Source of the DNA: a virus
Virus record (IMG/VR): IMGVR_UViG_3300024346_011137
Span: 1 to 48,432 of that record
Direction: 5' to 3' (one strand)
DNA length: 48,432 nucleotides
Position 1 is the stretch's first letter. Each line of letters begins with the position of its first letter. The notes beneath the pieces were generated by a model. That model had not been told where the DNA came from. It did not search any database and saw nothing but the letters and a program-made list of their open reading frames with translations. Shown here piece after piece: positions 11,523-40,950 of this stretch. Position numbers and translations under genes: made by a program.

Positions 11523-11553
11523 GTAAGTGAATGACTGTTTACACGGCGCTTAC
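11523..11553 (+). promoter_or_regulatory. Hairpin before the polymerase ribosome site
   Basis: GTAAGTG (11523-11529) pairs with CGCTTAC (11547-11553), with one G-U pair and a 17-base loop. It ends two bases before the AAAGGGGA ribosome site of dnaE. It is not followed by a T-tract, so it is not a terminator. It could stabilise the message or modulate polymerase translation; this is inference only. Confidence 0.35.
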
Positions 11554-11565
11554 AAAGGGGACCTT

Positions 11566-14500: not shown

Positions 14501-14808
14501 ACGATAGTTTGGAAGATTTTGCAGAAAGAGCAAGACCTAACAAAATGCTTGTTTCTGCTTTAGCTGAAGCAAGTGCACTAGATGTTTTGTCAGACGTTTT
14601 ACAATTTGATTATCTTGAAGATTTCTTGGAACATTGGGAATCCATTGTTGCAAATAGAAATGAAAGAGACAAACAAGCAGCAAAATTAAAGAGATTCAAT
14701 GATAGAAATTCAGTTTCTTTAGATAAAATTTTTGCTGGAAAAAAAGATGCATCAGAAAATAATTCTGATAAACTTAAAAATCTACTTAGTGATGATTTAT
14801 TTGATTGA
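11566..14808 (+). CDS. dnaE: DNA polymerase III alpha subunit, DnaE-type
   Basis: A 1080-residue C-family polymerase. The PHP domain opens the protein (HLHAHTHFS, later ITDHGKLGG and FIELQYHG). The polymerase core has RGSGVGSLVNY (about 387), FERFLNPGRG (about 412-421), catalytic PDVDTDID (about 532-539) and ASGVLVS; tRPGPMEF and FGGYAFNRSHACAYA follow. The start at ATG 11566 is chosen because AAAGGGGA sits about 5 bases upstream; the upstream GTG at 11527 lies in a hairpin and adds nothing conserved. About 105 extra residues separate FERFLNPGRG from the catalytic Asp motif, which in cellular DnaE are almost adjacent. The C-terminus is short and no DnaQ exonuclease domain is present. It should work with the clamp and loader genes at 28-33 kb. 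Confidence 0.93.
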   Translation: MCNKDFVHLHAHTHFSIQDALPTPAKYALKARELGFRASAITDHGKLGGAVEFVENCRSKSDFEPIKPIIGIEVYTCPDRFDKSKTDDGKRRKLNHLTLLAQNEVGYKNLLKLSALGNDPEAFYYSPRVDWGCIEKYSEGVIALSGCLASEVNQSLMREDIDSASNIVSRFKSVFNDRYFIELQYHGINEQKHNMKHLLDLAKRFGINTVASNDVHYLDKLDWKLHDVLIQMRDQRESRTGADKKNGKKEAYGSHQFYLKSHEDMMKIFGNGAPEAIKNSVLISEMVEDFFKIDVPHLLPSAVIPTDNAEFNSFWKSKLPYHKANEAYLAFLSLKSLRIMGLDNKNYLSRLQYELSQIWYMGVTDYFLIQREMVEFMKDKEILYGIRGSGVGSLVNYCLEVCNVDPIKWNLMFERFLNPGRGTQYNIDFKEFPSYQWKNEHGEEDQLAVTKHMRSVAKSWLKDNPEFKKYEPDIEKELWVLENQGLSSYVYGLSQSEIKVKNDAQLWTAYILGLSEEQPESTLKISKVAALPDVDTDIDDSKRSEVIDWTKHRFGDDHVAQIGTWGRYGAKAAVVGCLKSSDKFLDYHGENYHNEALKISALISKRPGATIEEAIKESFEFAQYYKVWEEEINAAIDLVGTISNFGVHASGVLVSSEPIEQHAPLENSKGNLCSAYDMKNVERMGLVKYDFLGLAAFQQISLCLKHIERLHGKKIQFKDINLEDPKIFKYIYAKGKTASVFQFASKGMQQALREVEASNIEDLIAVAALYRPGPMEFIPQYAEGKRNPSSLEYAHPVIEKHLSVTYGIMVYQEQAMKMARDMAGFTWTEVDKLRKAISKKSGRDFDDACNLFKEKSLIRGIPEPIVDSVLALMAKFGGYAFNRSHACAYALLSYWTAWLRYYYKSEWLAACIQIDRLDEDKLAILKKECDMDKIVIKEPNINESSVTTLVNKKGEILLPLSVIKGVGARAEDIIAHQPYDSLEDFAERARPNKMLVSALAEASALDVLSDVLQFDYLEDFLEHWESIVANRNERDKQAAKLKRFNDRNSVSLDKIFAGKKDASENNSDKLKNLLSDDLFD

Positions 14809-22400: not shown

Positions 22401-24344
22401 ATGGAAAATATATTACAAGAGAATAAAAGTCGGTTTGTTTTGTTTCCGATTGAGCATCACGATATCTGGGATTATTATAAGAAGGCTCAACAGGTTTTCT
22501 GGACCGCAGAAGAAATTGATTTATCCCAGGACCTAACAGATTGGGATAAATTAAATGAAGGCGAGAAGCATTTCGTAAAGCATGTTTTGGCATTTTTTGC
22601 AGCTTCTGACGGAATTGTAAATGAAAACTTAGCTGAAAATTTTGTATCTGAAGTTCAATATACAGAGGCAAAGTTTTTCTATGGCTTCCAGATTATGATG
22701 GAAAATGTCCACTGTGTCTCAGGAAATACTTTGATTTTGACTGACCAGGGACAGCTTGATATTAAAGATTGCGTTAATACATATGTCAATGTTTGGAATG
22801 GCGAAGTATTTTCAAATGTATTGATACAAGAAACTGGAATTCAAAATCTTTATCGTGTTAATTTATCTGATGGTAATTACCTTGATTGCACTGATGGTCA
22901 TAAATGGTTGATCCGCACTGGCAATCAGCTTCACCCTGAAAGATGTAAGACTGAACGAATTGAAACAAAAGATTTAAAGGAAGGAGATGTTATTGCTTTA
23001 TTTGAACTACCTGTAGTTCAATGTGAAGACCCAGACTTTTTCATGAATCCTTATATTCACGGTTTCTTCTGTGGGGATGGGAGCTATTCTAATGGATACC
23101 CTTACATCAAATTGTATGGTGATAAAGAAAACTTATTAGAGTATTTCTCTGTAGATTCTTCTAGTAACAAAGATCCTTATAAATTTTATGTAACTTCTAA
23201 AATCAACAAAAATAAATTTTTTGTTCCAGTAAATTATTCTGTTAAAACAAAACTTGATTGGCTTGCTGGATATGCAGATGCAGATGGTTGTGTAAATGTA
23301 AATTCCAGTAAAACAGCAACATCAATTCAAATTAGTTCTATAAATTATGAGTTTTTACTTGAAGTTAAGAATTTATTGGCAACTCTTGGTATACAAACAA
23401 ATATTGTGAAAACAAGAGATTTTAGTCAATCAACTTTTAATTACAATGATGGTACGAGTGGAACATATAATACGCAGCCAGTTTATTGTTTATATATTAC
23501 TGCTACTGATGTTGCTTTATTAAGTGATTTAGGGTTTGCTCCCAAAAGACTCAATCTGTTAATAGATCATTCAATTGTAGCTAAACGTAAATTAGTTAAG
23601 ATTGTAGGAGTTGAAGATTTAAATTGCGCCCAAATGACTTATTGCTTCAATGAACCTGAATTACATACGGGGACATTTAATAATATTCTTACAGGGCAAA
23701 GTGAAACATATTCTCTTTTAATTGATACATACATAAAAGACAAAGATGAACAGAACCATCTTTTCAATGCAATTGATACGGTTCCAGCTGTTCAAAAGAA
23801 AGCAGAATGGGCTCTTAAGTGGATTGGCTCTGAATCTTTTGTTGAAAGATTAGTTGCTTTTGCTGCTGTTGAGGGAATTTTCTTCTCTGGATCGTTCTGT
23901 TCTATTTTCTGGCTCAAGAAGCGTGGATTGATGCCTGGGCTTTCTTTTTCCAATGAATTGATTTCTCGTGATGAAGGCTTGCACACCGACTTTGCAGTTC
24001 ATCTATACAATAATCATATTGAAAACAAACTGTCCAAAGAAAGATTATTAGAGATTATTGACTCAGCTCTTGTAATTGAAAAAGAATTTATTACAGAAGC
24101 ATTACCTGTGTCTTTGATTGGAATGAATTCTAATCTTATGAAGCAATATCTTGAATATGTTTCTGACAGGCTTTTGATGGATTTTGGGGTTGGCAAGGTG
24201 TACAATGCCGAGAACCCATTTGACTTCATGCAAAATATTGCTATGGCTAATAAAACCAATTTCTTTGAGAAGAGAGTGGCAGATTATGTCAAGAGTGGTG
24301 TTGGTGAAGTTAAAGAACAAATCTCATTTGACGAGGACTTTTAA
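22401..24344 (+). CDS. nrdB: Ribonucleotide reductase class I beta subunit with intein
   Basis: A 647-residue precursor. Residues 1-104 and 434-647 form a 318-residue NrdB: HVLAFFAASDGIVNENL (Asp ligand), AKFFYGFQ with the likely radical Tyr, ENVH ligand pair, EGIFFSGSF and SRDEGLHTDF ligands, and a C-terminal SFDEDF tail that docks on NrdA. The sequence resembles eukaryote-type class Ia R2. The conserved ENxH-SETYS block is interrupted after His by a 329-residue intein. After splicing it makes deoxynucleotides with NrdA encoded 2 bases downstream. The ATG is the only in-frame start; its ribosome site lies upstream of a hairpin. Confidence 0.95.
   Translation: MENILQENKSRFVLFPIEHHDIWDYYKKAQQVFWTAEEIDLSQDLTDWDKLNEGEKHFVKHVLAFFAASDGIVNENLAENFVSEVQYTEAKFFYGFQIMMENVHCVSGNTLILTDQGQLDIKDCVNTYVNVWNGEVFSNVLIQETGIQNLYRVNLSDGNYLDCTDGHKWLIRTGNQLHPERCKTERIETKDLKEGDVIALFELPVVQCEDPDFFMNPYIHGFFCGDGSYSNGYPYIKLYGDKENLLEYFSVDSSSNKDPYKFYVTSKINKNKFFVPVNYSVKTKLDWLAGYADADGCVNVNSSKTATSIQISSINYEFLLEVKNLLATLGIQTNIVKTRDFSQSTFNYNDGTSGTYNTQPVYCLYITATDVALLSDLGFAPKRLNLLIDHSIVAKRKLVKIVGVEDLNCAQMTYCFNEPELHTGTFNNILTGQSETYSLLIDTYIKDKDEQNHLFNAIDTVPAVQKKAEWALKWIGSESFVERLVAFAAVEGIFFSGSFCSIFWLKKRGLMPGLSFSNELISRDEGLHTDFAVHLYNNHIENKLSKERLLEIIDSALVIEKEFITEALPVSLIGMNSNLMKQYLEYVSDRLLMDFGVGKVYNAENPFDFMQNIAMANKTNFFEKRVADYVKSGVGEVKEQISFDEDF
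22713..23699 (+). mobile_element. Intein with LAGLIDADG endonuclease in NrdB
   Basis: Residues 105-433 of the precursor. It begins with Cys (CVSGNTLIL), has a block-B-like CTDGHKW, and two dodecapeptide motifs IHGFFCGDGSY and LDWLAGYADADGC, so the homing endonuclease looks intact. It ends NNILTGQ before Ser+1 of the extein. The last residue is Gln rather than Asn and the penultimate is Gly rather than His. Gln-ending inteins are known (Pyrococcus abyssi PolII), so splicing is plausible. The insertion point is between the metal-ligand ENVH and SETYS. Confidence 0.92.
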
Positions 24345-24346
24345 GT

Positions 24347-26779
24347 ATGGATATTTTAAAGCGCAATGGAACAAAAGAGCCACTAAAGCTTGAAAAAATC
24401 GGTTCCAGAATCAAGAAGCTTACATACAGCTTACATGACATGGTTGATCCTGATCTTGTTAGCACAAAGGTTGTTTCTGGTCTATATGATGGTGTAAGCA
24501 GTGCAGAACTTGATCAGTTGAGCGCTGAAACATCTGCATCTATGATTACCACTCATCCTGATTATGGTAAGTTAGCTGCACGAATAGCTATCACTGCTCT
24601 TTATAAGGATGTAGAAAAAGATTTCTCAAGAGTTGCTACTAAACTCTACAATTACATTAACCCAAAAACTGGTGAAAAATCTGGCATGATTTCTGATGAA
24701 GTATATTCAGTAATTCAAAATCATGCTGATCAACTTGATGCGATGATTGTACATGATCGAGATTTTAACTTCGATTATTTTGGATTCATGACATTGAGAA
24801 AATCTTATTTGCTTAAGATTGATAGCAAGCCAGCGGAAACTCCTCAGCATCTTTATATGAGAGTGGCTGTTGGTATTTGGCGTGATAATTTAGAAATGGT
24901 TCAAAAGACTTATGATATGTTGTCCCAAGGTCTTTTTACCCATGCCACTCCAACGTTATTTAATGCTGGTACAAATAGACCTCAGCTATCATCCTGTTTC
25001 TTGTTAGATATTGATGACGATTCTATTCCAGGCATTTATAAGACATTATCTGATTGTGCTAAAATTTCTCAATCAGCTGGTGGTATTGGCATTAATATCC
25101 ACAAGATTCGTGCTAAGGGTAGTTACATTAAGGGCACCAATGGGCATTCTAATGGAATTATTCCTATGCTTCGTGTTTTCAATGAGACTGCTAGATATGT
25201 TGATCAGGGTGGTGGGAAGCGTAAGGGTTCCATTGCTGTATACCTTGAACCTTGGCATGGAGATGTCTACGACTTCTTAGATCTCCGTAAGAATCAAGGC
25301 AAGGAAGAAATGAGAGCAAGAGATTTGTTCTTAGCATTATGGATTCCTGACCTATTCATGCAAAGAGTAGAACAGGGTGGAGACTGGACATTATTCTCTC
25401 CTGAACAAGTTCCGGGACTCATTGATGCTTATGATTCACCTGATAATAAAGCTTTCACAGTTCTGTATGAAAAATATGAAGCTGAAGGTAAAGGTTTAAA
25501 GACAGTCAAAGCTCGTGAATTATGGGAAAAGATTCTTGATTCTCAAATTGAAACTGGCACACCTTACATGCTCTACAAAGATTCATGTAACTATAAGTCA
25601 AATCAAAAGAATCTAGGCACGATTTACAGCAGCAATTTGTGTACAGAAATTCTTGAGGTTAGCAACAAGAATGAAACTGCTGTGTGTAATCTTGCTTCTG
25701 TCGCATTACCTAAGTATGTTTTGATTCCATCAGGCAAGGTACGAGAGAAGGATAAAAAGCTTCGTAAGTTTGACTTCAGAGCTTTATATGATGTCACCTA
25801 TCAAGCCACTATTAATCTTAACCAAGTAATTGATATCAACTACTATCCAACAGAAGAAACATCAAACTCAAACTTTAAACATCGTCCTATTGGTTTAGGT
25901 GTTCAAGGTTTAGCAGATACTTTTGCAATTATGGGTCTTGCTTTTGATTCAGAAGAAGCTCGTAAATTAAACAAAGATATTTTTGAAACAATTTATTTTG
26001 CTGCTCTTACTGCTTCTAAGGATTTGGCAAAGGAACATGGTGCTTATTCGTCTTTTGAAGGATCTCCAACATCTCAAGGTTTATTACAATATGACTTATG
26101 GGGCCTTACTGAAAATGATCTTTCTGGACTGTGGGATTTTTCGGCTCTCAAAAAAGAAATCAAGCAATATGGATTGAGAAATTCTTTATTAGTTGCTCCT
26201 ATGCCTACAGCTAGCACTGCTCAAATTCTTGGAAACAATGAATGTTTTGAACCATTCACTGCGAACATTTACAAGAGAAATACACTTTCTGGTGAATATG
26301 CGATTATCAATAAGCATCTTGTTGAAGATCTTGTCAACCTTGGTATTTGGAGTGACAATATCAGAATGAAGCTTATTATTGACAATGGCTCTGTTCAGAA
26401 TATTGATGAGATTCCAACGGACATTAAGGAAGTGTACAAAACCGTTTGGGAAATTAAGGGTAAGTCAATTCTTGAAATGGCTAGAGATCGTAATTACTTT
26501 ATTGATCAAAGTCAGTCATTGAATATGTTTATGGCTGAACCTACTGTGTCCAAGCTTTCATCTGCTCATTTTTATGGATGGAAGATTGGTTTGAAGACAG
26601 GAATGTATTATCTTAGAACCAAACCTAAGGCTCAAGCTCTCAAGGGATTAGGAATTGATGTTTCTTCAATTCAACAAACTGAGAAGAAACCTGAAATTGA
26701 AATTAAACCTATGGAAGACGAGGTAGATATTCCTCAATGTAGGCTTGATAATCCAGATTGTGAAGCTTGTGGAAGCTAA
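24347..26779 (+). CDS. nrdA: Ribonucleotide reductase class I alpha subunit
   Basis: An 810-residue catalytic subunit of normal length. An ATP-cone is at the N-terminus (RNGTKEPLKLEKIGSRI). The core has ATPTLFNAGTNRPQLSSCFLL (active-site Cys near 217), AGGIGINIHKIR, NLCTEI and AVCNLASVALPKY (active-site Asn, Cys, Glu), MPTASTAQILGNNE, and the radical-transfer YYLRTKP near 762. The C-terminus ends in a Cys-x2-Cys pair (CEACGS) for re-reduction. It reduces NDPs to dNDPs with NrdB. The sequence resembles eukaryotic class Ia. It ends at a strong terminator. Confidence 0.95.
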   Translation: MDILKRNGTKEPLKLEKIGSRIKKLTYSLHDMVDPDLVSTKVVSGLYDGVSSAELDQLSAETSASMITTHPDYGKLAARIAITALYKDVEKDFSRVATKLYNYINPKTGEKSGMISDEVYSVIQNHADQLDAMIVHDRDFNFDYFGFMTLRKSYLLKIDSKPAETPQHLYMRVAVGIWRDNLEMVQKTYDMLSQGLFTHATPTLFNAGTNRPQLSSCFLLDIDDDSIPGIYKTLSDCAKISQSAGGIGINIHKIRAKGSYIKGTNGHSNGIIPMLRVFNETARYVDQGGGKRKGSIAVYLEPWHGDVYDFLDLRKNQGKEEMRARDLFLALWIPDLFMQRVEQGGDWTLFSPEQVPGLIDAYDSPDNKAFTVLYEKYEAEGKGLKTVKARELWEKILDSQIETGTPYMLYKDSCNYKSNQKNLGTIYSSNLCTEILEVSNKNETAVCNLASVALPKYVLIPSGKVREKDKKLRKFDFRALYDVTYQATINLNQVIDINYYPTEETSNSNFKHRPIGLGVQGLADTFAIMGLAFDSEEARKLNKDIFETIYFAALTASKDLAKEHGAYSSFEGSPTSQGLLQYDLWGLTENDLSGLWDFSALKKEIKQYGLRNSLLVAPMPTASTAQILGNNECFEPFTANIYKRNTLSGEYAIINKHLVEDLVNLGIWSDNIRMKLIIDNGSVQNIDEIPTDIKEVYKTVWEIKGKSILEMARDRNYFIDQSQSLNMFMAEPTVSKLSSAHFYGWKIGLKTGMYYLRTKPKAQALKGLGIDVSSIQQTEKKPEIEIKPMEDEVDIPQCRLDNPDCEACGS

Positions 26780-26843: not shown

Positions 26844-27164
26844 ATGAATCCTGAAGAAATAAAAAGAGTTGTAAGAGAAGTAAAAATTCTAGATGCAGTC
26901 TTGAAAGAAACAACTCCTACAGAAGAAGACAATAGAGTTCATCAATTTGTTTGGGTACAAATTCAAGACGTAGAATCAAAGAATATTTATGAAGTATCTC
27001 TTTCTTTGGATGATATTAAAAAAGCTGCTAAAAAAGAAGATTATTTAGAAGGCAGAAAACTCATAGATTTTACTACAAATCTTAAATTTATTGAAGAAAC
27101 AATTGATGCAATTTTTACTTTGCACAACGGCGGAATTGGGATAGAATTAGTCTTTGGAGAATAA
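26844..27164 (+). CDS. Small hypothetical protein, leaderless
   Basis: A 106-residue acidic/charged protein, helical at both ends with a short strand-rich middle (HQFVWVQIQDVE). It is the first gene of the operon that contains dUTPase and the clamp loader. The ATG coincides with the predicted transcription start. The function is unknown. Confidence 0.72.
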   Translation: MNPEEIKRVVREVKILDAVLKETTPTEEDNRVHQFVWVQIQDVESKNIYEVSLSLDDIKKAAKKEDYLEGRKLIDFTTNLKFIEETIDAIFTLHNGGIGIELVFGE

Positions 27165-27165
27165 T

Positions 27166-27681
27166 ATGGCAACATCAGCAAGTGGATCAGTTAATGTAAC
27201 AATGAATGGTTATCGAGCAAAAGTTGAAATCAAAGCTTTTAGAGAAGGTGCAGTAATTCCAGTAAAGGCTACAGAAGGTGCTGCAGGATATGATCTTTGT
27301 GCATGTATTCCTGATCAGTCTAATGGAATGATGATTCATCCTAACAATACTGGAATCATTCCCACTGGTTTAAACGTAAATATCCCTCAAGGATATGAAA
27401 TTCAAATTCGTCCAAGATCAGGTTTGGCTGCTAAGCATGGAGTGACTGTTTTAAACACTCCAGGGACAATTGATTGTGATTATTCTGGTGATGGTGAAAA
27501 CTTTGAACTCAAAGTGATTCTTATCAACCACAATAGAATGCCATTTGCTATTAACCACGGAGACAGAATTGCTCAAATGGTTGTTGCAAAACTTGCAGAT
27601 CATGATCTTGTGGAAGTTGAAGAATTTGGTGAAACAGCTAATAAATCTCGCACTGGTGGCTTGGGAAGTACTGGAAAATGA
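27166..27681 (+). CDS. dut: dUTPase
   Basis: A 171-residue trimeric-type dUTPase with the five motifs: AAGYDLCA (about 39-46), RPRSGLA (about 85), a region with DCDYSG (motif 3, catalytic Asp), GDRIAQMVV and the C-terminal RTGGLGSTG. ATG 27166 is chosen because GGAG (27155-27158) lies 7 bases upstream; a TTG at 27154 would sit in that site. It hydrolyses dUTP to dUMP and PPi, keeping uracil out of DNA and feeding dTMP synthesis. The next gene overlaps by ATGA. Confidence 0.93.
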   Translation: MATSASGSVNVTMNGYRAKVEIKAFREGAVIPVKATEGAAGYDLCACIPDQSNGMMIHPNNTGIIPTGLNVNIPQGYEIQIRPRSGLAAKHGVTVLNTPGTIDCDYSGDGENFELKVILINHNRMPFAINHGDRIAQMVVAKLADHDLVEVEEFGETANKSRTGGLGSTGK

Positions 27682-28474: not shown

Positions 28475-29539
28475 ATGAGTTTATATAATACATATCGACC
28501 AAAAACTTTTAAAGATATTAGAGCTTCTAAGTCATCTGAAATTATTGCAAAACAAATTTCATTAAATAAGACAGCTCATTCTTATATTCTTTCAGGCCCT
28601 CCAGGTACAGGCAAAACTACATTAGCCCGTGTAGCTTCTATGGCTTTACTATGCGATAATTTTAATGAAGAACCTTGTGGCATTTGTTCATCATGTATTT
28701 CAGTAATGGATGATAATAATCCAGATGTTTATGAAATAAATTGTGCAGTAAATAATGGAGTTGATCATGTTAGAGATAATATTATTCAACTTGCTAGACT
28801 CGCACCAATATCCGGAAAATATAAGATATTCATTTTAGATGAATGTCATATGCTAACTACACAAGCTCAAACTACTCTTATTAAGATTACAGAAGAGCCA
28901 CCAAAGCATGTAAAATTCTTCTTTTGTACTACAGATCCTAATAAAATTCTTAGATCTATCCAAACTAGAAGTCAAACTTTCCCAATGAAGAAATTATCTG
29001 ACAAAGATATTTTTGATTTGCTTGAAAATGTTTGCGACAAAGAGAATTTTATTTACGACATTGACGCATTGAATATAATTGCAAAAGAAGCTGAAGGTAG
29101 TGCAAGAACAGCATTGTCTATACTAGATCAAGCTTCTGTAAGTGATATTTCTGATGAAAACATTCGAGAATTATTAAATAAATCTCCCAAATTTGTTTCA
29201 TATGAAATTTTAGATGCAATATTTTCTTGCAATAGATCTCAAGCATGTAGACTAATTCAATCTTCTCATGCTGAAGGAAGAGATTTGTGCGCATTAACAT
29301 TAGAGTGTGCTCATATTACAATGACTGCTATTAACTATGTTTTGCTTAAAACTAAAAAGGAAGACAGAGTTACTGAGATAGAAAATATAGCAAGAACTGT
29401 AAAGAGTCCATATTTAGTGGAAATTACTGAACAGTTGTATAACTTATCCTGTAATATAAGGCAAACTGTCTCTGAAGATATAGTTGTGATGACTGGACTT
29501 CTAAAAATTATTGATTGGTACGCTAGAAATCAAGCGTAA
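28475..29539 (+). CDS. dnaX: Clamp loader tau/gamma subunit, DnaX-like
   Basis: A 354-residue AAA+ clamp-loader subunit. It has Walker A GPPGTGKTT (about 41-49), a four-Cys zinc motif (CDNF, CGICSSC at about 63-79), NNGVDHVRDNI, Walker B FILDECHML (Cys instead of the usual Val), sensor CTTDPNKI and an SRC-like TRSQTF (Ser-Arg finger position has Arg-Ser-Gln). Domain III-like helices follow; no tau extension. It would load the DnaN-like clamp at 31342. A GAGGA lies just upstream of the ATG. Confidence 0.92.
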   Translation: MSLYNTYRPKTFKDIRASKSSEIIAKQISLNKTAHSYILSGPPGTGKTTLARVASMALLCDNFNEEPCGICSSCISVMDDNNPDVYEINCAVNNGVDHVRDNIIQLARLAPISGKYKIFILDECHMLTTQAQTTLIKITEEPPKHVKFFFCTTDPNKILRSIQTRSQTFPMKKLSDKDIFDLLENVCDKENFIYDIDALNIIAKEAEGSARTALSILDQASVSDISDENIRELLNKSPKFVSYEILDAIFSCNRSQACRLIQSSHAEGRDLCALTLECAHITMTAINYVLLKTKKEDRVTEIENIARTVKSPYLVEITEQLYNLSCNIRQTVSEDIVVMTGLLKIIDWYARNQA

Positions 29540-29577
29540 ATTTAGAATTGAAATGAATATTGCCTTCGGAAGTAAAC

Positions 29578-30270
29578 ATGGCAACCGAAGATCCAAGAAT
29601 TGTAAGAATAGTAAATAAAGCAAAAAAAGGTGACGAAAAGTCATTTAAGCAGCTTCTTAAGATGGTTGAGCCGGATTTGAAAAAAATCGCTGCTCACTTT
29701 TTTATTTTAGGAAGTGATAGAGAAGATGTTTTGCAAGAACTTCGTTTAGGAGTTTTTAAAGCTGTTAATTCTTACGACTGTACAAAAGATACCACATTTA
29801 AGAATTTCTGTGTTAATTTAGTTTGCAAAAGACATTTAGCTACAGCAATTTCGTCTGCTAAAAGAATGAAAAATTCTGTATTGAATGACTCAATTTCTTT
29901 AGATGCTCCTTTGATATTAGGAGATGATGGTAATTTGCAAACCTTAGCTGACTATATACCAGACAAGCTCAATCCTTTTGATGAATCTCCAGAGACAAAT
30001 TTAGTGCAAGACATCTTAATGAGAGAAGAGTATGAAATCAATTCAAGCAAATTACTTGAAAAACTCACTCCTTTAGAAGCTGATATATATAAAGAATATA
30101 ACATCAATTCATCATACAAAGAAATTTCAGTAAAACTTCAAGTTCCAGCTAAATGTGTTGACAATGCACTCACAAGAATTAGAAAAAAAGCTAATGAAGT
30201 TTACGTTAATTACAAAGAAGAAGAAAAAAAAGATCCTGCTCACACAAATATCAGAAAATCAAAACAGTAG
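29578..30270 (+). CDS. SigH-like RNA polymerase sigma factor
   Basis: A 230-residue sigma-70 family protein. Region 2 is clear: FILGSDREDVLQELRLGVFKAVNSYD (split over about residues 38-65), then FKNFCVNLVCKRHLATAI. Region 4 near 165-205 has LTPLEADIYKEY followed by an HTH-like SYKEISVKLQVPAKCVDNALTRIRKK. It resembles Bacillus SigH. ATG 29578 is chosen because GGAAG lies 6 bases upstream; a TTG at 29560 is an alternative. It probably directs transcription of a phage gene class. Confidence 0.87.
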   Translation: MATEDPRIVRIVNKAKKGDEKSFKQLLKMVEPDLKKIAAHFFILGSDREDVLQELRLGVFKAVNSYDCTKDTTFKNFCVNLVCKRHLATAISSAKRMKNSVLNDSISLDAPLILGDDGNLQTLADYIPDKLNPFDESPETNLVQDILMREEYEINSSKLLEKLTPLEADIYKEYNINSSYKEISVKLQVPAKCVDNALTRIRKKANEVYVNYKEEEKKDPAHTNIRKSKQ

Positions 30271-30313: not shown

Positions 30314-30342
30314 TTGTCAATATTTCTACAATGATGTAGAAT
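30314..30342 (+). promoter_or_regulatory. Sigma-70 promoter of the PurA/PurZ-like gene
   Basis: TTGTCA (30314-30319), 17 bases, TAGAAT (30337-30342). The predicted start lies at about 30349-30350, the A of ATG 30350. The earlier ATG at 30341 lies inside the -10 box, so it is unlikely to be used from this promoter. Confidence 0.75.
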
Positions 30343-30349
30343 GTGCATT

Positions 30350-31345
30350 ATGGAAACTTCAACTGTTGATGTAGTTATCGGGATGCAGTATGGCGACGAG
30401 GGCAAGGGAAAAATAGCCAATCAAATGGCTGCATCAGGTGATTATGATTATGTGTTTCGCTTCAATGGAGGAGGAAACGCAGGTCATACAATTTACCTCA
30501 ATGGAGAGAAAATTGTTACACATTTGGTTCCTTGTGGTATTCTGCATGGCATCCCTAGTGTCATTGGTAATGGTTGTGTTATCAATACGAAAAAGTTATT
30601 TGACGAACTTGAGTATCTTGAGACATTTGGATTCGACACATCATTATTAAAAATTGCAGAAAACGCTCATATAATAACTAAAGAACATATCGAAGAAGAT
30701 TCCAAAGATACAATTATTGGAACTACTCGCACTGGAAATGGCCCTTGTTATAAAGACAAAGTTGGTCGCACAGGCCTTCGTGCCAAAGATGTTCCTGAAT
30801 TAGCGCCATATCTAGTTGATATGTATAGTCTTATTCATTCTTCCCCAAAGAAATTTCTAGCTGAAGGTGCTCAAGGGTACTGGCTTGATATTGACTTTGG
30901 TGATTATCCTTATGTCACATCATCAAATACCGGAGTGGGAGCTGTATTAAATAATGGTTTCAATTTTAAGCAAGTACGGGATGTTGTCGGGGTTATCAAA
31001 TGTTATTCTACCTATGTTGGAGCTAAAGGATATCAAAAACACGATGAAAGATTTGAAAAGCTGCGTGAGATTGGTCAAGAGTTTGGAGCCACTACTGGAC
31101 GACCAAGACAAATTGATTGGCTAAATTTCAATGAAGTAATTACAGCTTGCCAAATGAATGGTGTAACCAAGCTAATTGTAAACAAAATGGATGTTTTAGC
31201 TCAAATTGAAAATGGCTGGGATTGGTATCAGGATGGTAAATTACATTTTGTTGATGATGAAGGTTCATTTATGCTTTGTCTTATGAATTACATTGCAAAA
31301 TACAATTCAGATATTGAAGTTGAATTCCAGGGTCAATTACATTGA
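30350..31345 (+). CDS. Adenylosuccinate synthetase family protein (PurA/PurZ-like)
   Basis: A 331-residue protein, shorter than bacterial PurA (about 430) and similar to archaeal PurA and phage PurZ-type enzymes. Motifs: YGDEGKGK P-loop (about 11-18) with the catalytic Asp of PurA retained, GGGNAGHTI (about 36-44), a TTRTGNGPCYKDK loop, LAEGAQGYWLDIDFG and YVTSSNT, then GATTGRPRQIDWL and NKMDVL guanine-binding. PurA joins IMP and Asp; PurZ acts on dGMP towards 2-aminoadenine (Z) DNA. Classical PurZ replaces the catalytic Asp, so this one is ambiguous. No DatZ, MazZ or DpoZ is in the window. The start at 30350 matches the promoter. Confidence 0.88.
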   Translation: METSTVDVVIGMQYGDEGKGKIANQMAASGDYDYVFRFNGGGNAGHTIYLNGEKIVTHLVPCGILHGIPSVIGNGCVINTKKLFDELEYLETFGFDTSLLKIAENAHIITKEHIEEDSKDTIIGTTRTGNGPCYKDKVGRTGLRAKDVPELAPYLVDMYSLIHSSPKKFLAEGAQGYWLDIDFGDYPYVTSSNTGVGAVLNNGFNFKQVRDVVGVIKCYSTYVGAKGYQKHDERFEKLREIGQEFGATTGRPRQIDWLNFNEVITACQMNGVTKLIVNKMDVLAQIENGWDWYQDGKLHFVDDEGSFMLCLMNYIAKYNSDIEVEFQGQLH

Positions 31346-32460
31346 AATTCAAACTATCTAAAATTGATCATCTCTCTAAATTGCAAGTATTGAATAAACT
31401 TGAAAAATCTAAGCTTGCAATTTCTGAAAATAAATCCTCAATTTATAGCAATCTGATATTTTACACAAATAACAATAAATTATTTTGTTATTTGAATAAT
31501 ATGCATGCTTTTTCTTCAGTGTTTCTAACCGATGTTGAAGAAGAATTTGCTTTTTCATTAGACTGTAATATATTTTTGAATGCTTTCAATAATTTTCCCA
31601 CAAATGAAATTCAATTTATTTACAATTCAGAAAATAATACATTAGTTTTTGGCAATAAGAAAACCAGGGTATCATTGTCAACATCTCTTGTATCTGAAAA
31701 AGTGATTGAAAGTTTAGAAAATTCATTCATTTATGATAAAGATAACATTGTTGATATAAACAATGATGAATTAGCAAAAGCAATCAAATATACATTGTTT
31801 GCATGTGCGCCGGATGCTGAAGAATATCCTTACACTTCTATTTTGTTTTACATAAAGGATAATAGTGTATGCTGCCAATCATCTGACAAGCATAGAATAG
31901 CTTTATTTGGAGATTCAATACTGCCAAATAACACATATCTAATTTCTAAAAATAATGCTGATAATATACTAAACTTTTTAGATTACAGAAAAGAAAGCAA
32001 GTTTTATTTATCAAGAAATTCATTATTTTTAGTGAATGAGAATGATAAATTTGGTTGTCAACTTGAATCAAATGAATACAGTGCTGTATTTGAAAATTAC
32101 AAAAAGTTTCTAAATACTGCTGAATCAATATTTTCTATAAAGCTTGACAAATCTGATGTTACAAAATCAGTAAAGTTCATTTCGAATATAAGTTCTGGAA
32201 ACACTGTGACTTTTCAATTCCAGAATGATGAATTAATTCTAGGTAGTTCTTCTCATGAAAAGGGAAGTGCTATTGACAAAATAAAACTTGATGAAACTGT
32301 AAATGATTTATCAGTAGTTTATTTAGCGAGTCATGTCAACAAGGTCTTAGATATTCTGCCTGAAAACATTGTTGAATTTGATTTTTTGAACTACAATGGA
32401 TATACACTGCTAAAACTAAAAGCAGACAGCTATATTCACTTAATTTTCCCAATGGAATAA
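31342..32460 (+). CDS. dnaN: Sliding clamp, DNA polymerase III beta-like
   Basis: A 372-residue protein of usual DnaN length. The three repeated domains are weakly conserved; SSDKHRIALFG (about residues 172-182) and C-terminal LKADSYIHLIFPME match the beta-clamp pattern (protein-binding pocket and the terminal Met-Pro-like tail). The TTG start overlaps the preceding TGA stop (TTGA), with AGGG about 10 bases upstream. It would tether the DnaE-like polymerase and be loaded by DnaX and the delta-like protein encoded nearby. Confidence 0.85.
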   Translation: MKFKLSKIDHLSKLQVLNKLEKSKLAISENKSSIYSNLIFYTNNNKLFCYLNNMHAFSSVFLTDVEEEFAFSLDCNIFLNAFNNFPTNEIQFIYNSENNTLVFGNKKTRVSLSTSLVSEKVIESLENSFIYDKDNIVDINNDELAKAIKYTLFACAPDAEEYPYTSILFYIKDNSVCCQSSDKHRIALFGDSILPNNTYLISKNNADNILNFLDYRKESKFYLSRNSLFLVNENDKFGCQLESNEYSAVFENYKKFLNTAESIFSIKLDKSDVTKSVKFISNISSGNTVTFQFQNDELILGSSSHEKGSAIDKIKLDETVNDLSVVYLASHVNKVLDILPENIVEFDFLNYNGYTLLKLKADSYIHLIFPME

Positions 32461-32462
32461 AA

Positions 32463-33458
32463 ATGTCATCTAAAATTTTTATTGGTTCAAGACACCAGGC
32501 TTATATTTTCTTAAGAGCCAAGAATAACTCCACTGTTACTGTGCATAACGTTCAGTCTCATGTTAAGAGTTTTTCACCTTTATTTGATGGTAATAAAACT
32601 TTTATTTACAATAATCCATCTTCTGAGGAAATAAAATTGATTTCCACTCTGGTTGATAAGAATATGGGTGAGCATTGTTTACTGTTTGATGATGAAAGTT
32701 TTGATGGAAGAATTTCTTTAATCCAAAAAATAAGAAAGAGTAATTCTGTATATAATTTTTCCTATCCAGTATTAGGTGACACCACTGAACTTAAAAGAAG
32801 AGTTTTGCAATTTACAAAAACTTTAGAAATAGAAATAGACAACAATTGCTTTGACTGGATATCACAAAATTGTCCAATCTTTAGAATCAAGTCCAAAGAA
32901 TCTGGTTCTAAAAAAGAATCTCTTACATACGACATAGAATTGCTTTTCCAAGAGCTATATAAGATTAGTTCTTACACAGACAAGATAACATTAGAAGAAT
33001 TACAAAATTCTAATTTCAACACTGATTCTGATATTTTCATGTTCATTGATCAAATATTGAATAAAAAACTAAATGAGGCTCTAGTTTCATCCCAGTTGCT
33101 TATGTCAAGTATGGGTGAACAAGGTATGCTTTTAATTCTTTTGAATCAATTGTTGTTTCTTCTTCATGTTTCTCAATGCAAAGAAGAAAGAATCTACAAC
33201 ACTGATGATGTATTGAAGAGATTAGAGAATAGAGATTTAATTGGTAAATATTTATCAGAATCTTGGGAATTGATTTCAGTGCCAATAAAAAGCCAAAATC
33301 CCACCAGAGTTCGTATTGAAATTTCAAAAGATACATATTCAACAATCAAATTATCAAAAATGATTAATTTCGTTGTGGATACAATCAAAGATCTAAGAAA
33401 TCACGGCAACAAAAATATAGCAATGTTTTTATTGCTAAATAAAATGCAAATTGTATAA
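32463..33458 (+). CDS. Clamp loader delta subunit-like (HolA)
   Basis: A 331-residue protein of the right length and layout for HolA: an N-terminal alpha/beta region without Walker motifs, a helical region with DIELLFQELYKISSYTDKITLEEL (in two parts, about 158-180) and a C-terminal helical collar with LLILLNQLLFLLHVSQ. It lies directly after dnaN. It is assigned by layout and context rather than by a diagnostic motif. It would open the clamp for DnaX. Confidence 0.65.
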   Translation: MSSKIFIGSRHQAYIFLRAKNNSTVTVHNVQSHVKSFSPLFDGNKTFIYNNPSSEEIKLISTLVDKNMGEHCLLFDDESFDGRISLIQKIRKSNSVYNFSYPVLGDTTELKRRVLQFTKTLEIEIDNNCFDWISQNCPIFRIKSKESGSKKESLTYDIELLFQELYKISSYTDKITLEELQNSNFNTDSDIFMFIDQILNKKLNEALVSSQLLMSSMGEQGMLLILLNQLLFLLHVSQCKEERIYNTDDVLKRLENRDLIGKYLSESWELISVPIKSQNPTRVRIEISKDTYSTIKLSKMINFVVDTIKDLRNHGNKNIAMFLLLNKMQIV

Positions 33459-33466: not shown

Positions 33467-34024
33467 ATGTTAGAAGATAGATATGTATACATAAATAATT
33501 TAATTGATAAAATTAAATCTGGAAATTCTGAAAGTTTGTTTGAACTGAAAGAGTTTTACAAACCTCTTATCTTAACTTCTATAAAAAGATGCATAGCTAA
33601 AGATCAAAGATTATTTCCTTACAGAGAAGACATATTATCCGAATCAATTTTTGTATTAGAAAAATTAGTACATCAATATGATCCATCTCTTACATATTTC
33701 TCTTATTTTTTATCTACAAGAATAGATATCAATATAATCAGATATTCTGTTGATAAATTTTTAGATAAAAATGAATCTAATGAAAATTATGAATTTGAAG
33801 CTACTTCAGACCCACTAAGTAGAATTGAAGATGTAATTACATTGCACGAAGCTATTAATAAATTGAATCCTAGTCAAAAAGAAGCTATTGAACTTTATTT
33901 CTTTCAACAAAAGGATCAAGAAGAAGCTGCAAGTATTTTAAATATCACACAAAGTGCTTTTTCGAAAAGATTACAAAGAGCAATTGCTTCTTTGAAAGAT
34001 ATTCTTGGTAAAGACTTTTATTGA
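33467..34024 (+). CDS. ECF/sigma-70-like sigma factor
   Basis: A 185-residue protein. Region 2: YREDILSESIFVLEKLVHQYDPSLTYFSYFL (as two adjoining segments at about 45-77). Region 4: LHEAINKLNPSQKEAIELYFFQQ followed by an HTH, DQEEAASILNITQSAFSKRLQRAIASLK (about 145-172). It ends just before the head-gene region, so it is a candidate late sigma. With the SigH-like and zinc-containing proteins it makes three sigma-like genes in 14 kb. Confidence 0.87.
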   Translation: MLEDRYVYINNLIDKIKSGNSESLFELKEFYKPLILTSIKRCIAKDQRLFPYREDILSESIFVLEKLVHQYDPSLTYFSYFLSTRIDINIIRYSVDKFLDKNESNENYEFEATSDPLSRIEDVITLHEAINKLNPSQKEAIELYFFQQKDQEEAASILNITQSAFSKRLQRAIASLKDILGKDFY

Positions 34025-35594: not shown

Positions 35595-38500
35595 ATGAGA
35601 AAACCTTCTCCGGACAAACTAAAACAATACGATCTTAAATCTCAAATGCTACAACACTCAGCTGCTGTAGTTGATTTTTTCAAAGAACAGGGTTTCGAAG
35701 GAGAATTTACAGATGAAATTTTTCCTGAAACAAGGTCTGAAGTATCTCATCCCGCTATACCAGAAAAAACAAGATTTAACCCTGATCAAATTGTAGATAT
35801 TGTTACTTTTATAGAACATCCTTATTTTTGTAACTTAAAACCATACCCTTGGCAAAAATTAATTCTTAAATTGTTCTACATGGGTCAAGAAGGCAACACG
35901 AATCTAGAAATTACTAATTCAGAAAATCAAATTGATTGCGATGGATGTGTATGGTCTTATATCAAAGATAATGAATTAGATTTTTACAATACAAGAAATA
36001 GTCAAAGGCAAGTTAAGACAATCTTTTCAATTACAAATTCACCTTGTGTTCAATGCAAAAGATTAGATCCAGTGGTTAAAGAACACAGATATGAACGTGC
36101 TAATTCTGAAGCTACAAACCCTGATGCTGAAAAAAAAGTAAAAGAGTTTGAAGAAAGAGCAATAACTGACAATTATCAATCTGAAATGGATCTTCTTTAC
36201 TCTGAAGAGTTTGATCCAAAATTAAGAATGCAAGTAGAGACCAAATGTCTTAACAGATACAAATTTGAAGAACTTGTTTTGGTGCTTGGTCGTCGTTCTG
36301 GAAAAGCTCTAAACTTAGAAACACCAGTATATACAATGTCTGGATGGTCTACAATGGGTGAATTGAAACCAGGAGAGTATGTATTTGCCCCTGATGGAAC
36401 TCCTACTAAAATTATTGCTAAGTCTGATGTGGATTATCAAAAGCAAGCATATGAATTAGTATTTAGTAATGGAGATAAAATTGTTGCCTGTGAAGATCAT
36501 GAATGGGTGACATTGACAAAAGCTCAAAGAAAAAATGCATCCAGAGGAAAATATTCAAAAGATCCTGTGCCTCAAGTTTTTACTACACAACAAATCTATG
36601 AATCATTAACATATGGCAATCCAAGACAGATGCTTAAAAAAGGCTCGCAAACTGAAAGAAATGAAAAATTATCTGTTGAGTATAATCATGCTATAGAGAT
36701 TACAAAACCACTTATATTCCCAGAAAAAGAGCTATTGATTCATCCATATCTTTTGGGAGCATGGTTGGGAGACGGTTCACAGTCTTCTTGTCAAATAGCC
36801 GGAATTGATATGGAAATTTTTGATTACATAGAAGCTAACTGTAACCAGACTGTAAAACATTCAGAATACAATAATACTTCTCATTTTATTAAGCCAAATA
36901 ATGAAAGAGATAAAATATTCTTGCACTTAATAAAAGAAATAGGAATATACAAAAACAAGCATATTCCATCGATTTATAAACAAGCTTCTATTGAACAAAG
37001 ATTAGAATTAGTCCGAGGATTGAATGATACAGATGGTTATGTAGATCCTAAAAAATTTACAGTGGAATTTTGTAACACTAATGAAACTCTTGCTTATGAT
37101 TATTATGAATTGGTTTGTGGATTAGGTTTCAAAGCAAGTATAAAAAAATCTGATGCAAAATTATATGGCAAAAAAATATCTGATCGTTGGCGCATCACTT
37201 ATTCTGTCCGTCCTGGAGATAAGGTATTTAATTTATCTAGAAAACAATCGGTATTAGATAACAAAACATCAATAGATAAATCTGATAAATACAGAATTTT
37301 TATCAAGGAATGTAATCTTGTTGCTAATTCTGGTATGCAATGTATACAAGTAGAGCATCCTTCTCATATGTACTTAGCTGGTAGGAGCATGATTCCTACA
37401 CATAATTCATTTCTTGTTTCTGCCATGGCTCTTTATGAGCTTTACAGGCTTCTTTCCATGGGTCATCCACAAGGAAGATATGGGCTCATGGAGTTTGATG
37501 AAATTGTTTTGCTAAATGTTGCTAGAAACGAAGAGCAAGCAAAAAAAGCAATCTTCTCTAAAATCAAACAAACAGTTTTAGCTTCTCCTTACTTTCAACC
37601 TCATATTGGTAAAGATACTGAATTGGAGATGAGATTTTTAAATGATCATGACCTGAAAGAAAATGAAAGAAGAATTGCTTTAGGTCTTAATCAATTTGCT
37701 GGAAGTTTAGTATTAAGATGCGGTTCAAGTAATGCTTCAGGTCTTGTTGGTCTTACTTGTTGGTCAATCATCATGGACGAAGTTGCTGCTATGGCTGGTG
37801 ACAATCCTGATTCAGGCGTTGACAATGAATTGTATGATGAATTAAAACCATCTTTAGCAACCTTTGGTAAAGATGGAAAAATGATGATGCTTTCTAACCC
37901 AAAAGGACCAATTGGGTTACTATTTGATTTACATGAAAATCGACAAGATGATCCAACAACATTAGTATTAAGATTACCAACCTGGCTTACAAATCCTAAT
38001 ATTGATAAAGATTGGCTTGAAAATCAAAAACGCAAAGATCCCAATGAATTTATGATGCAATATGGAGCTGAATTTGGAGCTTCATCATCTGATCCAATGT
38101 TTACTCCTGATTCAGTGCAAAGAATGTTTTCAAGCATGAACATGGTGAAACGTGCTGAACAAGGACATTCTTTACATGAATATTTTTGCCATTTAGATCC
38201 AGCAAGAACTTCAGATTACTATGCACTAGTAATTGGACACGCAGAAAGAATCAATGGAACTATTGGACCAGATTTTCAACCTTTGAGAAGAGTTGTAATT
38301 GATCATATCCATTTTTGGAGTCCAATTTCTAAAAATCAACCTATCTCCGAAAGAGAAGTGGAAGATTATGTAATTGAACTTAATCAAAAATTCAGATTCA
38401 GACAAGTTAGTATTGATCAATGGCATTCTCAATCTTCAATCATCAAACTAAAATCAAGAGGTGTTAACATTGTTGAAAGACAGTTTAATAAAGAATATAA

Positions 38501-38807
38501 AGAAAAAATTTACACTGAACTGACTCAATTAGTAAGAGAAGATAGAATTGATGTTTACGATATTTCAAATGGCAAATACATTGATGCTGGTGGACAAGAA
38601 CAGCATTTGAATGAAATACAAGAAGCTAAAACTCAATTCTTATTCTTACAGAAAAAATGGAAAGGCAAAAGATATTATATTGAAGCTTTATCAGGCTATA
38701 AAGATGATATCTGTGATGCTATTGCTGCAGTGTCTTATGAATGCACCACAAATAAAATTCTACAAAGACTACCATCAAGTAAAATGGTTAGATTTTCTAG
38801 AAGGTAA
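35595..38807 (+). CDS. Terminase large subunit with intein
   Basis: A 1070-residue precursor; without the intein it is 703 residues. The ATPase has Walker A GRRSGK-S (residues 232-237 joined to 605), Walker B SIIMDEVAA and a KMMMLSNPKG coupling segment. The nuclease has HLDPARTSDYYAL, a VSIDQWHSQ and DDICDAIAAV acidic residues. Before the ATPase is a 200-residue extension with two Cys pairs (CDGC at about 115-118, CVQC at about 152-155) that may bind zinc. It packages DNA into the prohead through the portal. The intein sits between Lys and Ser of the P-loop. Confidence 0.93.
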   Translation: MRKPSPDKLKQYDLKSQMLQHSAAVVDFFKEQGFEGEFTDEIFPETRSEVSHPAIPEKTRFNPDQIVDIVTFIEHPYFCNLKPYPWQKLILKLFYMGQEGNTNLEITNSENQIDCDGCVWSYIKDNELDFYNTRNSQRQVKTIFSITNSPCVQCKRLDPVVKEHRYERANSEATNPDAEKKVKEFEERAITDNYQSEMDLLYSEEFDPKLRMQVETKCLNRYKFEELVLVLGRRSGKALNLETPVYTMSGWSTMGELKPGEYVFAPDGTPTKIIAKSDVDYQKQAYELVFSNGDKIVACEDHEWVTLTKAQRKNASRGKYSKDPVPQVFTTQQIYESLTYGNPRQMLKKGSQTERNEKLSVEYNHAIEITKPLIFPEKELLIHPYLLGAWLGDGSQSSCQIAGIDMEIFDYIEANCNQTVKHSEYNNTSHFIKPNNERDKIFLHLIKEIGIYKNKHIPSIYKQASIEQRLELVRGLNDTDGYVDPKKFTVEFCNTNETLAYDYYELVCGLGFKASIKKSDAKLYGKKISDRWRITYSVRPGDKVFNLSRKQSVLDNKTSIDKSDKYRIFIKECNLVANSGMQCIQVEHPSHMYLAGRSMIPTHNSFLVSAMALYELYRLLSMGHPQGRYGLMEFDEIVLLNVARNEEQAKKAIFSKIKQTVLASPYFQPHIGKDTELEMRFLNDHDLKENERRIALGLNQFAGSLVLRCGSSNASGLVGLTCWSIIMDEVAAMAGDNPDSGVDNELYDELKPSLATFGKDGKMMMLSNPKGPIGLLFDLHENRQDDPTTLVLRLPTWLTNPNIDKDWLENQKRKDPNEFMMQYGAEFGASSSDPMFTPDSVQRMFSSMNMVKRAEQGHSLHEYFCHLDPARTSDYYALVIGHAERINGTIGPDFQPLRRVVIDHIHFWSPISKNQPISEREVEDYVIELNQKFRFRQVSIDQWHSQSSIIKLKSRGVNIVERQFNKEYKEKIYTELTQLVREDRIDVYDISNGKYIDAGGQEQHLNEIQEAKTQFLFLQKKWKGKRYYIEALSGYKDDICDAIAAVSYECTTNKILQRLPSSKMVRFSRR
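36306..37406 (+). mobile_element. Intein with LAGLIDADG endonuclease in terminase P-loop
   Basis: Residues 238-604 (367 residues). It begins ALNLETPVYT after GK, so the first residue is Ala, not Cys or Ser. Block B is ACEDHEW. The endonuclease motifs are YLLGAWLGDGS and LVRGLNDTDGY, apparently intact. It ends MIPTHN before Ser+1. Ala-1 places it with class 2-type or terminase-type inteins that start splicing by direct attack from the +1 residue. The site disrupts ATP binding until splicing occurs. Confidence 0.93.
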
Positions 38808-39840: not shown

Positions 39841-40950
39841 ATGTATGATTACTTAGTTGTTGGAGCCGGATTATTCGGCTCCATTTTTGCATTTGAAGCT
39901 AATAAACTTGGTAAAAAAGTATTAGTTCTTGAAAATAGAAATCATATTGGTGGAAATTGCTATTCTGAGCCATATGAAGATTATCATATTCATAAATATG
40001 GCCCTCATATTTTTCATACAAACAAAAAACACATCTGGGACTATATAAATCAATTTGCATCTTTCAACAATTTTACATTAAGAAATAAAGCTTTTGTAAA
40101 TGGAAAAATTTATTCATTGCCAATAAATCTATCAACAATTCATCAAATTTGGCCTGATGTCAAAAATCCGAAAATGGCTCAGGAAATGTTAAAAAAAGAT
40201 TCGATAAAGATTGATAATCCACAAAACTTTGAAGAATATTGTTTGTCTACCATGGGCAAGACTTTATATGAAATGTTTTTCTACGGATATACAAAAAAAC
40301 AATGGGGTCGAGATCCCGAAACTTTACCAGTTTCGATTGCTAAAAGAATACCCCTTAGATATTCATTTGATGATAGATATTATCATGATGATTATATTTA
40401 TGAAGGCATACCAATCAATGGCTACACAGCTATATTTGAGAAGCTTTTAGAGAACATTGATATTGAATTAAGATGTGATTATTTAAAAGACAAAGAAGAA
40501 TTTGATAAGCTTGCTAAAAAAACAATTTACACAGGATCTATAGACAGATATTTTAATTACATGTTTGGAGATTTAGAATATAGAACTCTCAAACATAACA
40601 CAGTATTTACAAAAGAAGATTTGTGTGGGACAGCTTTGATGACATATCCCTCATTGATTTATAGTCACACTAGAATAATTTCACATAATTATTTCACGAA
40701 CAGTAAATCTAATAATAAAGCGATCACATGGGAATATTCCAAAACTTATGAAAAAAAATCTAGCAGTGAAGATCCATATTATCCAATCAATGATGAAATA
40801 AATAATAATATTTATAAAAAATATAAAGATTTTGCTGATACAAATTTCCCTAATTTACTAATTGGTGGAAGATTAGGCGATTACAAATATTACGATATGG
40901 ATGCGACAATTGACAAAGCATTGGCACTTTGTTTAAAGGAATTTTCATAG
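39841..40950 (+). CDS. glf: UDP-galactopyranose mutase
   Basis: A 369-residue flavoenzyme of normal Glf length. The FAD-binding GAGLFGS (about 8-14) is at the N-terminus, then LENRNHIGGNCY, YGPHIFHT (substrate-site Tyr-Gly-Pro-His), FFYGYTKKQWG, PINGYTAIF and C-terminal LIGGRLGDYKYYDMD. It interconverts UDP-galactopyranose and UDP-galactofuranose, a precursor of galactofuranose in surface glycans. It sits among head genes with its own -10 box, suggesting a moron-like cargo that could alter host surface polysaccharide or glycosylate a virion protein. Confidence 0.93.
   Translation: MYDYLVVGAGLFGSIFAFEANKLGKKVLVLENRNHIGGNCYSEPYEDYHIHKYGPHIFHTNKKHIWDYINQFASFNNFTLRNKAFVNGKIYSLPINLSTIHQIWPDVKNPKMAQEMLKKDSIKIDNPQNFEEYCLSTMGKTLYEMFFYGYTKKQWGRDPETLPVSIAKRIPLRYSFDDRYYHDDYIYEGIPINGYTAIFEKLLENIDIELRCDYLKDKEEFDKLAKKTIYTGSIDRYFNYMFGDLEYRTLKHNTVFTKEDLCGTALMTYPSLIYSHTRIISHNYFTNSKSNNKAITWEYSKTYEKKSSSEDPYYPINDEINNNIYKKYKDFADTNFPNLLIGGRLGDYKYYDMDATIDKALALCLKEFS
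39862..39888 (+). terminator. Terminator-like hairpin inside the glf start
   Basis: GGAGCCG (39862-39868) and CGGCTCC (39876-39882) form a perfect 7-base stem with a 7-base loop, followed by ATTTTT. It codes for the FAD-binding glycine loop, so it could be coincidental, but it has full intrinsic-terminator form 22 bases into the gene. Confidence 0.5.

Follow-up and report, generated by a model that had tools for sequence, protein, structure and literature searches.

The described proteins closest to the gene analyzed here are cellular PurA and the phage enzymes PurZ and PurZ0. In a 2026 survey, Ser replaces the catalytic Asp of PurA in 147 of 147 phage PurZ/PurZ0 proteins (PMC12884076). A second study assigns roles to the corresponding S-2L residues; it describes PurA R303 as balancing the 2'-oxygen of IMP, and lists S-2L R240 among the residues that complete the dGMP pocket (PMC8342488). 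Purine genes in huge phages are known in general, and an earlier paper mentions a GMP reductase in a pelagimyophage (PMC7162821 and PMC7029224, respectively). Search listings of open-licence PMC papers gave no description of PurA–GMP reductase pairing in phages.

We analyzed a 48,432-base IMG/VR virus record (the window; GC 0.326), which may be a fragment. A first-pass annotation had placed a PurA-family synthetase gene at 30350–31345 of this phage, and this proved correct. The ORF (30341–31345, plus strand) is intact, encodes 334 aa from an alternative upstream ATG at 30341, and matches PF00709 with 281.8 bits (E = 1.1e-83; Pfam gathering score, 27 bits). The ATG at 30350 is the start common to relatives (METS..., MDNS...) and gives a protein of 331 aa. 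With a probability of roughly 80%, judged from sequence, the product of this gene is a shortened phage version of adenylosuccinate synthetase with PurA-like activity, which most likely supplies adenine. Its features are as follows.

30350–31345, plus strand: short phage PurA (adenylosuccinate-synthetase type), 331 aa, from PF00709, tree and fold model
30392–30412, plus strand: P-loop GDEGKGK; its Asp is the catalytic residue of PurA (E. coli D13), Ser in PurZ and PurZ0
31013–31015, plus strand: Tyr replacing E. coli Arg272 in the alignment, where a remodelled loop of the nucleotide pocket starts
31091–31108, plus strand: aspartate loop TTGRPR, which contains the counterpart of E. coli R303, from alignment
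31181–31192, plus strand: NKMD, GTP-base motif of PurA (NFxN/Q in PurZ representatives, mostly TMxD in PurZ0 representatives)

Relatives were gathered in several scans. The IMG/VR scan returned 56, comprising 52 of the window clade, three more distant ones (L056, L058 and L059) and a fragment (L055). Another scan covered 56 loci near L056 (the L056 family), and a broad scan (A1scan) found 507 relatives, the best 80 of which were used; of 79 A1scan loci, 38 were counted out because they have the HolA and second sigma genes of the window clade. The scans re-sampled common contigs (four loci of the G011 lineage, for example, represent two contigs). Because loci overlap between scans, the fractions given below describe loci, not independent events. 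Several short phage records numbered OR84xxxx contain a PurA about as similar as bacterial ones and, judging by length and match pattern, probably represent host DNA. The window purA is kept in the 52 window-clade loci, many of them near-identical contigs and so not 52 independent cases. Its dN/dS against 12 relatives is 0.07–0.20, indicative of purifying selection.

The protein scored below the NCBIfam cut-offs for PurA equivalogs (PRK01117, 280.7 versus 402; TIGR00184, 260.9 versus 395.6), for archaeal PurA (PRK04293, 188.4 versus 368) and for PurZ (NF038379, 117.8 versus 300). As the equivalog cut-offs are missed, we classify it on the PurA side of PF00709, in a short phage branch, and not as a curated PurA equivalog. 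An AlphaFold2 model built from 45 window and IMG/VR sequences (mean pLDDT 91.2, pTM 0.90) found its best fold matches in full-length PurA (Z = 41.0 for 1iwe and 40.9 for 1cg4). Scores against other PF00709 structures were 37.2 for the short archaeal PurA 5k7x, 32.9 for PurZ0 and 31.5–29.7 for ligand-bound PurZ; because two PurA entries from Legionella reach only about 30, the groups cannot be told apart by Z alone.

Residues were compared in an alignment of 164 representatives, with E. coli PurA numbering. This alignment was relied on in place of pattern counts for the GTP motif and Asp loop, which were crude and missed many rows. The P-loop, YGDEGKGK, keeps the PurA catalytic Asp, as the first-pass annotation had stated. 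So do 133 of 133 distinct viral relatives with a readable P-loop (7 of 140 were unreadable), including those with the variants GDTGKGK (seven A1scan rows) and GDCGKGK (one L056-family row). The window protein matches PurA at D13, T271, T300, G302, R303, K331 and D333, where nine PurZ/PurZ0 representatives mostly differ. These have S13, I271 and V300 (9/9 each), K, Q or N at 302 and a changed 331, with Asp333 retained in PurZ0. Short archaeal PurA, too, usually has V300, which hence is not diagnostic by itself. All the PurA-side features scored (Asp13, His41, R303, K331/D333 and the TTGR.R loop) are present in the window protein. Of 64 columns that are ≥98% conserved in cellular long PurA, it keeps 52, versus 33–35 in PurZ and 38–40 in PurZ0.

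The 12 altered columns include R272Y and the 276–281 loop near the nucleotide. More generally, the viral clade differs at positions that are nearly invariant in cellular PurA: D21, R272, G276, P277 and R306. R272Y occurs in 34 of 34 representatives of the window and A1scan clades, with G276/P277 lost and the loop shortened, and the L056 family has its own substitutions (R272K in 19 of 20 representatives, V273S in 20 of 20). In our alignment, E. coli R272 pairs with S-2L R240. R303 is kept in 34/34 representatives of the window and A1scan clades. The remodelled pocket loop may bear on the preference for IMP or dIMP. Three PurA-like proteins (L146, L147 and L220), from Vibrio phage phiTY18, from a Rhizobium phage and, as a third copy, from a Chryseobacterium genome, keep Asp13 while most of the TTGR.R loop is absent in the alignment; on sequence grounds they perhaps use another substrate.

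We placed the gene in a tree of 41 sequences under a site-mixture model, leaving out L058 and L275 (an earlier tree had long branches). The short phage PurA proteins form a clade (support 100/99), and its sister, a full-length PurA, comes from a 735-kb phage (LR756501; 97/87). Bacteroidota PurA joins these two (99/97), and PurZ and PurZ0 form a clade of their own. Grouping the viral proteins with PurZ was rejected (AU p = 0.0136). Thus the phylogeny against PurA, PurZ and PurZ0 that had been proposed at the outset places the gene, as far as sequence goes, with PurA.

The first-pass annotation had also called the length archaeal-type. This holds for the length as such: short archaeal PurA representatives have 337–345 aa, and they and the window PurA miss the same two profile stretches, about 148–190 and after 331–333. 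These stretches are not needed for binding, since the 5k7x structure was determined in the presence of GTP, IMP and hadacidin. It does not hold for placement in the tree, where grouping of the phage clade with short archaeal PurA was rejected (AU p = 0.005; p = 0.039 with PurZ left out), so that an archaeal origin is disfavoured. One test, which put every short form together (viral, short archaeal and PurZ), did not reject that grouping (AU p = 0.14). Despite this, the residues and the full-length sister suggest that the short length of the phage PurA probably arose separately from that of the archaeal form.

The window purA, flanked by genes for a sigma-like factor and a DnaN-like clamp, lies within an all-plus-strand replication block that encodes DnaB, DnaE, RecA, primase, RecJ, ribonucleotide reductase chains, dUTPase, DnaX, sigma factors, DnaN and HolA. 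The main members are listed here.

11527–14808, plus strand: DnaE-type replicative DNA polymerase (PF07733, PF17657, PHP)
22401–24344, plus strand: ribonucleotide reductase small chain (NrdB) with a LAGLIDADG insert, a probable intein
24347–26779, plus strand: ribonucleotide reductase large chain
27154–27681, plus strand: ordinary dUTPase (157 bits, cut-off 103)
28475–29539, plus strand: DnaX-like clamp loader
29560–30270, plus strand: sigma-70-like factor, directly 5' of purA
31342–32460, plus strand: DnaN-like sliding clamp (listed TTG start; 4-nt overlap with the purA stop)
32463–33458, plus strand: HolA-like clamp-loader delta subunit
33467–34024, plus strand: second sigma-70/ECF-like factor

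The whole order MetPep-DnaX-sigma-PurA-DnaN-HolA-sigma is found in 30 of the 52 window-clade loci; the others stop at contig edges or had DnaN missed by the search. HolA and the second sigma factor are present in 52/52. The polymerase is indeed DnaE-type, as first described. LAGLIDADG_3 inserts occur both in NrdB and in a 1070-aa ORF at 35595–38807 with no other Pfam match, and are probable inteins. A UDP-galactopyranose mutase gene (39841–40950; 335.8 bits, cut-off 303.75) is unusual cargo adjoining the replication genes. PADLOC, run on eight proteins, gave no match. DutZ was considered for the dUTPase and rejected, as the protein passes the ordinary dUTPase cut-off and has D-x-D-Y like E. 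coli, not the D-x-G-Y of DutZ rows; its best match, 'DutZ_Sapo', was merely the nearer of two dUTPase queries.

In sister clades, purA often has a partner gene of the IMPDH/GMP-reductase family. Such a gene lies near purA, often directly beside it, in 29 of 57 L056-family loci and, among the matches listed, in 19 of the 41 A1scan loci that fall outside the window clade. For the L056 family the partner is mostly GMP reductase, with three of four tested proteins passing PRK05096 (L228, L242 and L261 at 509, 521.5 and 516 bits; cut-off, 397). The other five tested (L315, L318, L340, L346 and L269, the last from the L056 family) stayed below this cut-off. The A1scan-clade partner is below every cut-off and has neither CBS domains nor the IMPDH flap. 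IMP dehydrogenase was rejected for it: the IMPDH model scores highest (220–275 bits), yet there are no CBS domains and no flap with the RY pair. The flap pattern test also failed a clear IMPDH (L367), making the alignment the better evidence that the flap is missing. Phage GMP reductase falls in the PHROGs family phrog_9582, named 'dehydrogenase'.

A reverse search starting from GMP reductase found phage PurA within 4 kb in 41 of 80 viral loci; the remaining 39, some with little flank, showed none within that distance. The order PurA-GuaC-PolA occurs in 17 of these loci. In one of them (L416, 363–4166) PurA and GuaC overlap by 4 nt, and in this and the 16 others the row of PurA, GMP reductase and family-A DNA polymerase is mostly followed by a dNMP-kinase-like gene. 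This row mimics the PurZ–DpoZ pairing yet keeps the Asp. Elsewhere, a GMP-reductase-like partner ends nine bases before the purA start (L318), and L346 has the order DnaE-PurA-dUTPase-ClpP-ThyX-x-GuaX. In the distant G011 lineage (L059, 6998–12102 of a 190-kb virus record), GuaX, PurA and PurB lie in the same direction within 5.1 kb, with PurA and PurB overlapping; this phage would thus carry three consecutive purine steps. Within the window clade, GMP reductase was beside purA in 0 of 52 loci. One of 10 searched window-clade records (G003, 358 kb) has a divergent GMP-reductase homologue about 137 kb from purA. This gene (203908–205731; L065) is two genes from a weak match to DUF1599, 'nucleotide modification associated', which we discarded as a base-modification neighbour because its score is too low (22.1 versus a cut-off of 25).

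IMP is the metabolite common to PurA and GMP reductase; in functional terms, this is what chiefly points to IMP as the substrate. The enzyme would convert IMP, aspartate and GTP to adenylosuccinate, GDP and Pi; host PurB would then turn adenylosuccinate into AMP, and the phage's own ribonucleotide reductase (22401–26779) would reduce ADP, towards dATP. If purA is transcribed as one unit with the replisome block, its position there may let adenine supply track DNA synthesis. In the sister lineages, GMP reductase and PurA may together turn guanine into adenine nucleotides. The phage PurA family most likely runs the route GMP → IMP → adenylosuccinate → AMP, or only the final part of it. The idea of a purine-supply gene, one of two offered by the first-pass annotation, thus gains from the PurA residues, the PurA-side position in the tree and the sister lineages with GMP reductase and, once, PurB. 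Counted against PurA-like supply are the missed equivalog cut-offs, the 12 of 64 altered columns and the lack of GMP reductase beside window-clade purA. An AT-rich genome's need for A is a weak motive, since contigs with the PurA–GMP reductase module range in GC from 0.28 to 0.49.

Recycling of dC to dT is known, and dG to dA would be its purine counterpart. It is conceivable, though unlikely, that the module works at the deoxynucleotide level, with the GMP-reductase-like partner converting dGMP from degraded host DNA to dIMP and PurA carrying dIMP towards dAMP, so that host dG is recycled to dA. What speaks for this is the loop on the ribose/deoxyribose side of the pocket (around E. coli V273, according to PMC8342488), which is remodelled in the viral clade through R272Y and loop shortening, or through R272K and V273S in the L056 family. 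The neighbouring ribonucleotide reductase, dUTPase and ThyX genes also serve deoxynucleotide supply. Yet R303, which faces the IMP 2'-OH in PurA (same study), is unchanged in all representatives of the window and A1scan clades. The partner enzyme bears on the question too. The Asp of the DGG motif in GMP reductase binds ribose, and 50 of the 52 scanned rows of viral GMP-reductase-like proteins retain this Asp, which argues against a deoxyribose substrate. If the deoxynucleotide route were true, these phages would have a dedicated purine-switching unit, with the window PurA as its replisome-operon branch.

We consider it very improbable that the enzyme is of the PurZ type, making dSMP from dGMP in a phage whose 2-aminoadenine DNA is copied by a DnaE polymerase, the new pairing that the first-pass annotation had entertained. 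Short length and a phage location are shared with PurZ, and the tree test that united all the short forms gave no rejection (p = 0.14). There is also a family name: PHROGs phrog_1211, '2-aminooxy adenylosuccinate synthetase', matches the window protein with 231.7 bits. As this label sits on a PurA-side gene, annotation with PHROGs would over-call Z phages. Against a PurZ-type enzyme stand Asp in place of Ser at the P-loop, the low PurZ-model score, the rejected viral-plus-PurZ clade and the searches for Z partners. As the first-pass annotation had reported, no DatZ, MazZ or family-A polymerase was found in the window. We searched 16 records with profiles for DatZ (PF12917), family-A polymerase (PF00476), DUF550 (PF04447) and DUF5664 (PF18909). 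Z-phage controls matched (Vibrio phage QH, DatZ and PolA; S-2L, DatZ and DUF550; Arthrobacter phage Wawa, PolA and DUF5664). All four families were absent from 12 of 12 IMG/VR records, which may be incomplete; 10 of these belong to the window clade, among them records of 300,536, 315,852 and 358,269 bases. A terminal repeat was sought in the last of these (G003), and none convincing was found. Likewise, blastp with DatZ, MazZ, DmtZ, DUF5664 and both DpoZ proteins gave no match in 194 PurA-scan loci; in the 80 GMP-reductase loci the QH polymerase alone matched, in seven loci (21% identity in the pair compared). The 735-kb phage has one DUF550 (dATP/dGTP pyrophosphohydrolase) match, at 644830–645060 of LR756501, far from its purA. 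On residues, tree and these partner searches we reject a Z-DNA role for this gene, and the window purA does not look like a Z-genome marker.

Pool control, in which the enzyme drains IMP, GTP or aspartate and so starves host processes or blocks a GTP-based alarm, is a slim prospect: PurA does consume GTP and IMP (PMC12884076) and the gene is set among replication and sigma genes, but GMP reductase recurs as its partner, and PurB appears once, which speaks for making a product.

These results strike one candidate from the Z-DNA list and explain how such candidates arise; the Ser/Asp site, together with the tree, tells PurA-side genes from PurZ. They also bring out a broad phage PurA family, with several clades coupled to GMP reductase. 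This coupling makes conversion of guanine to adenine nucleotides during infection testable, and is the part worth following.

Compared with bacterial PurA (E. coli, 1cg4), the phage form shares the catalytic Asp and His, the aspartate loop, the GTP motif and the fold (Z = 40.9), and falls on the same side of the tree. It differs in missing two stretches of roughly 40 and 60–80 residues, in the remodelled loop at 272–281 and in scoring below the equivalog cut-offs. The PurA of the 735-kb phage is, like the window's, phage-encoded, and it has the catalytic Asp and is the sister in the tree; however, it is a long form of 399 aa that passes the PurA cut-off (449 versus 402). The window's replication genes are absent from the 41-kb stretch around this purA (blastp, E = 1e-6). 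Short archaeal PurA (Pyrococcus horikoshii PH0438, 5k7x) resembles the phage form in length and missing stretches, but belongs to a separate clade. PurZ and PurZ0 (phiVC8, S-2L, Gordonia) are likewise short, phage-encoded members of PF00709. They differ in having Ser for Asp, I271, V300, altered 302/303 and an altered GTP site, and those of Z-DNA phages have DatZ, MazZ, DpoZ or DutZ/DmtZ as partners. E. coli GuaC, finally, has its counterpart in the neighbor gene of the sister phage clades, a gene that is absent beside the window's own purA.
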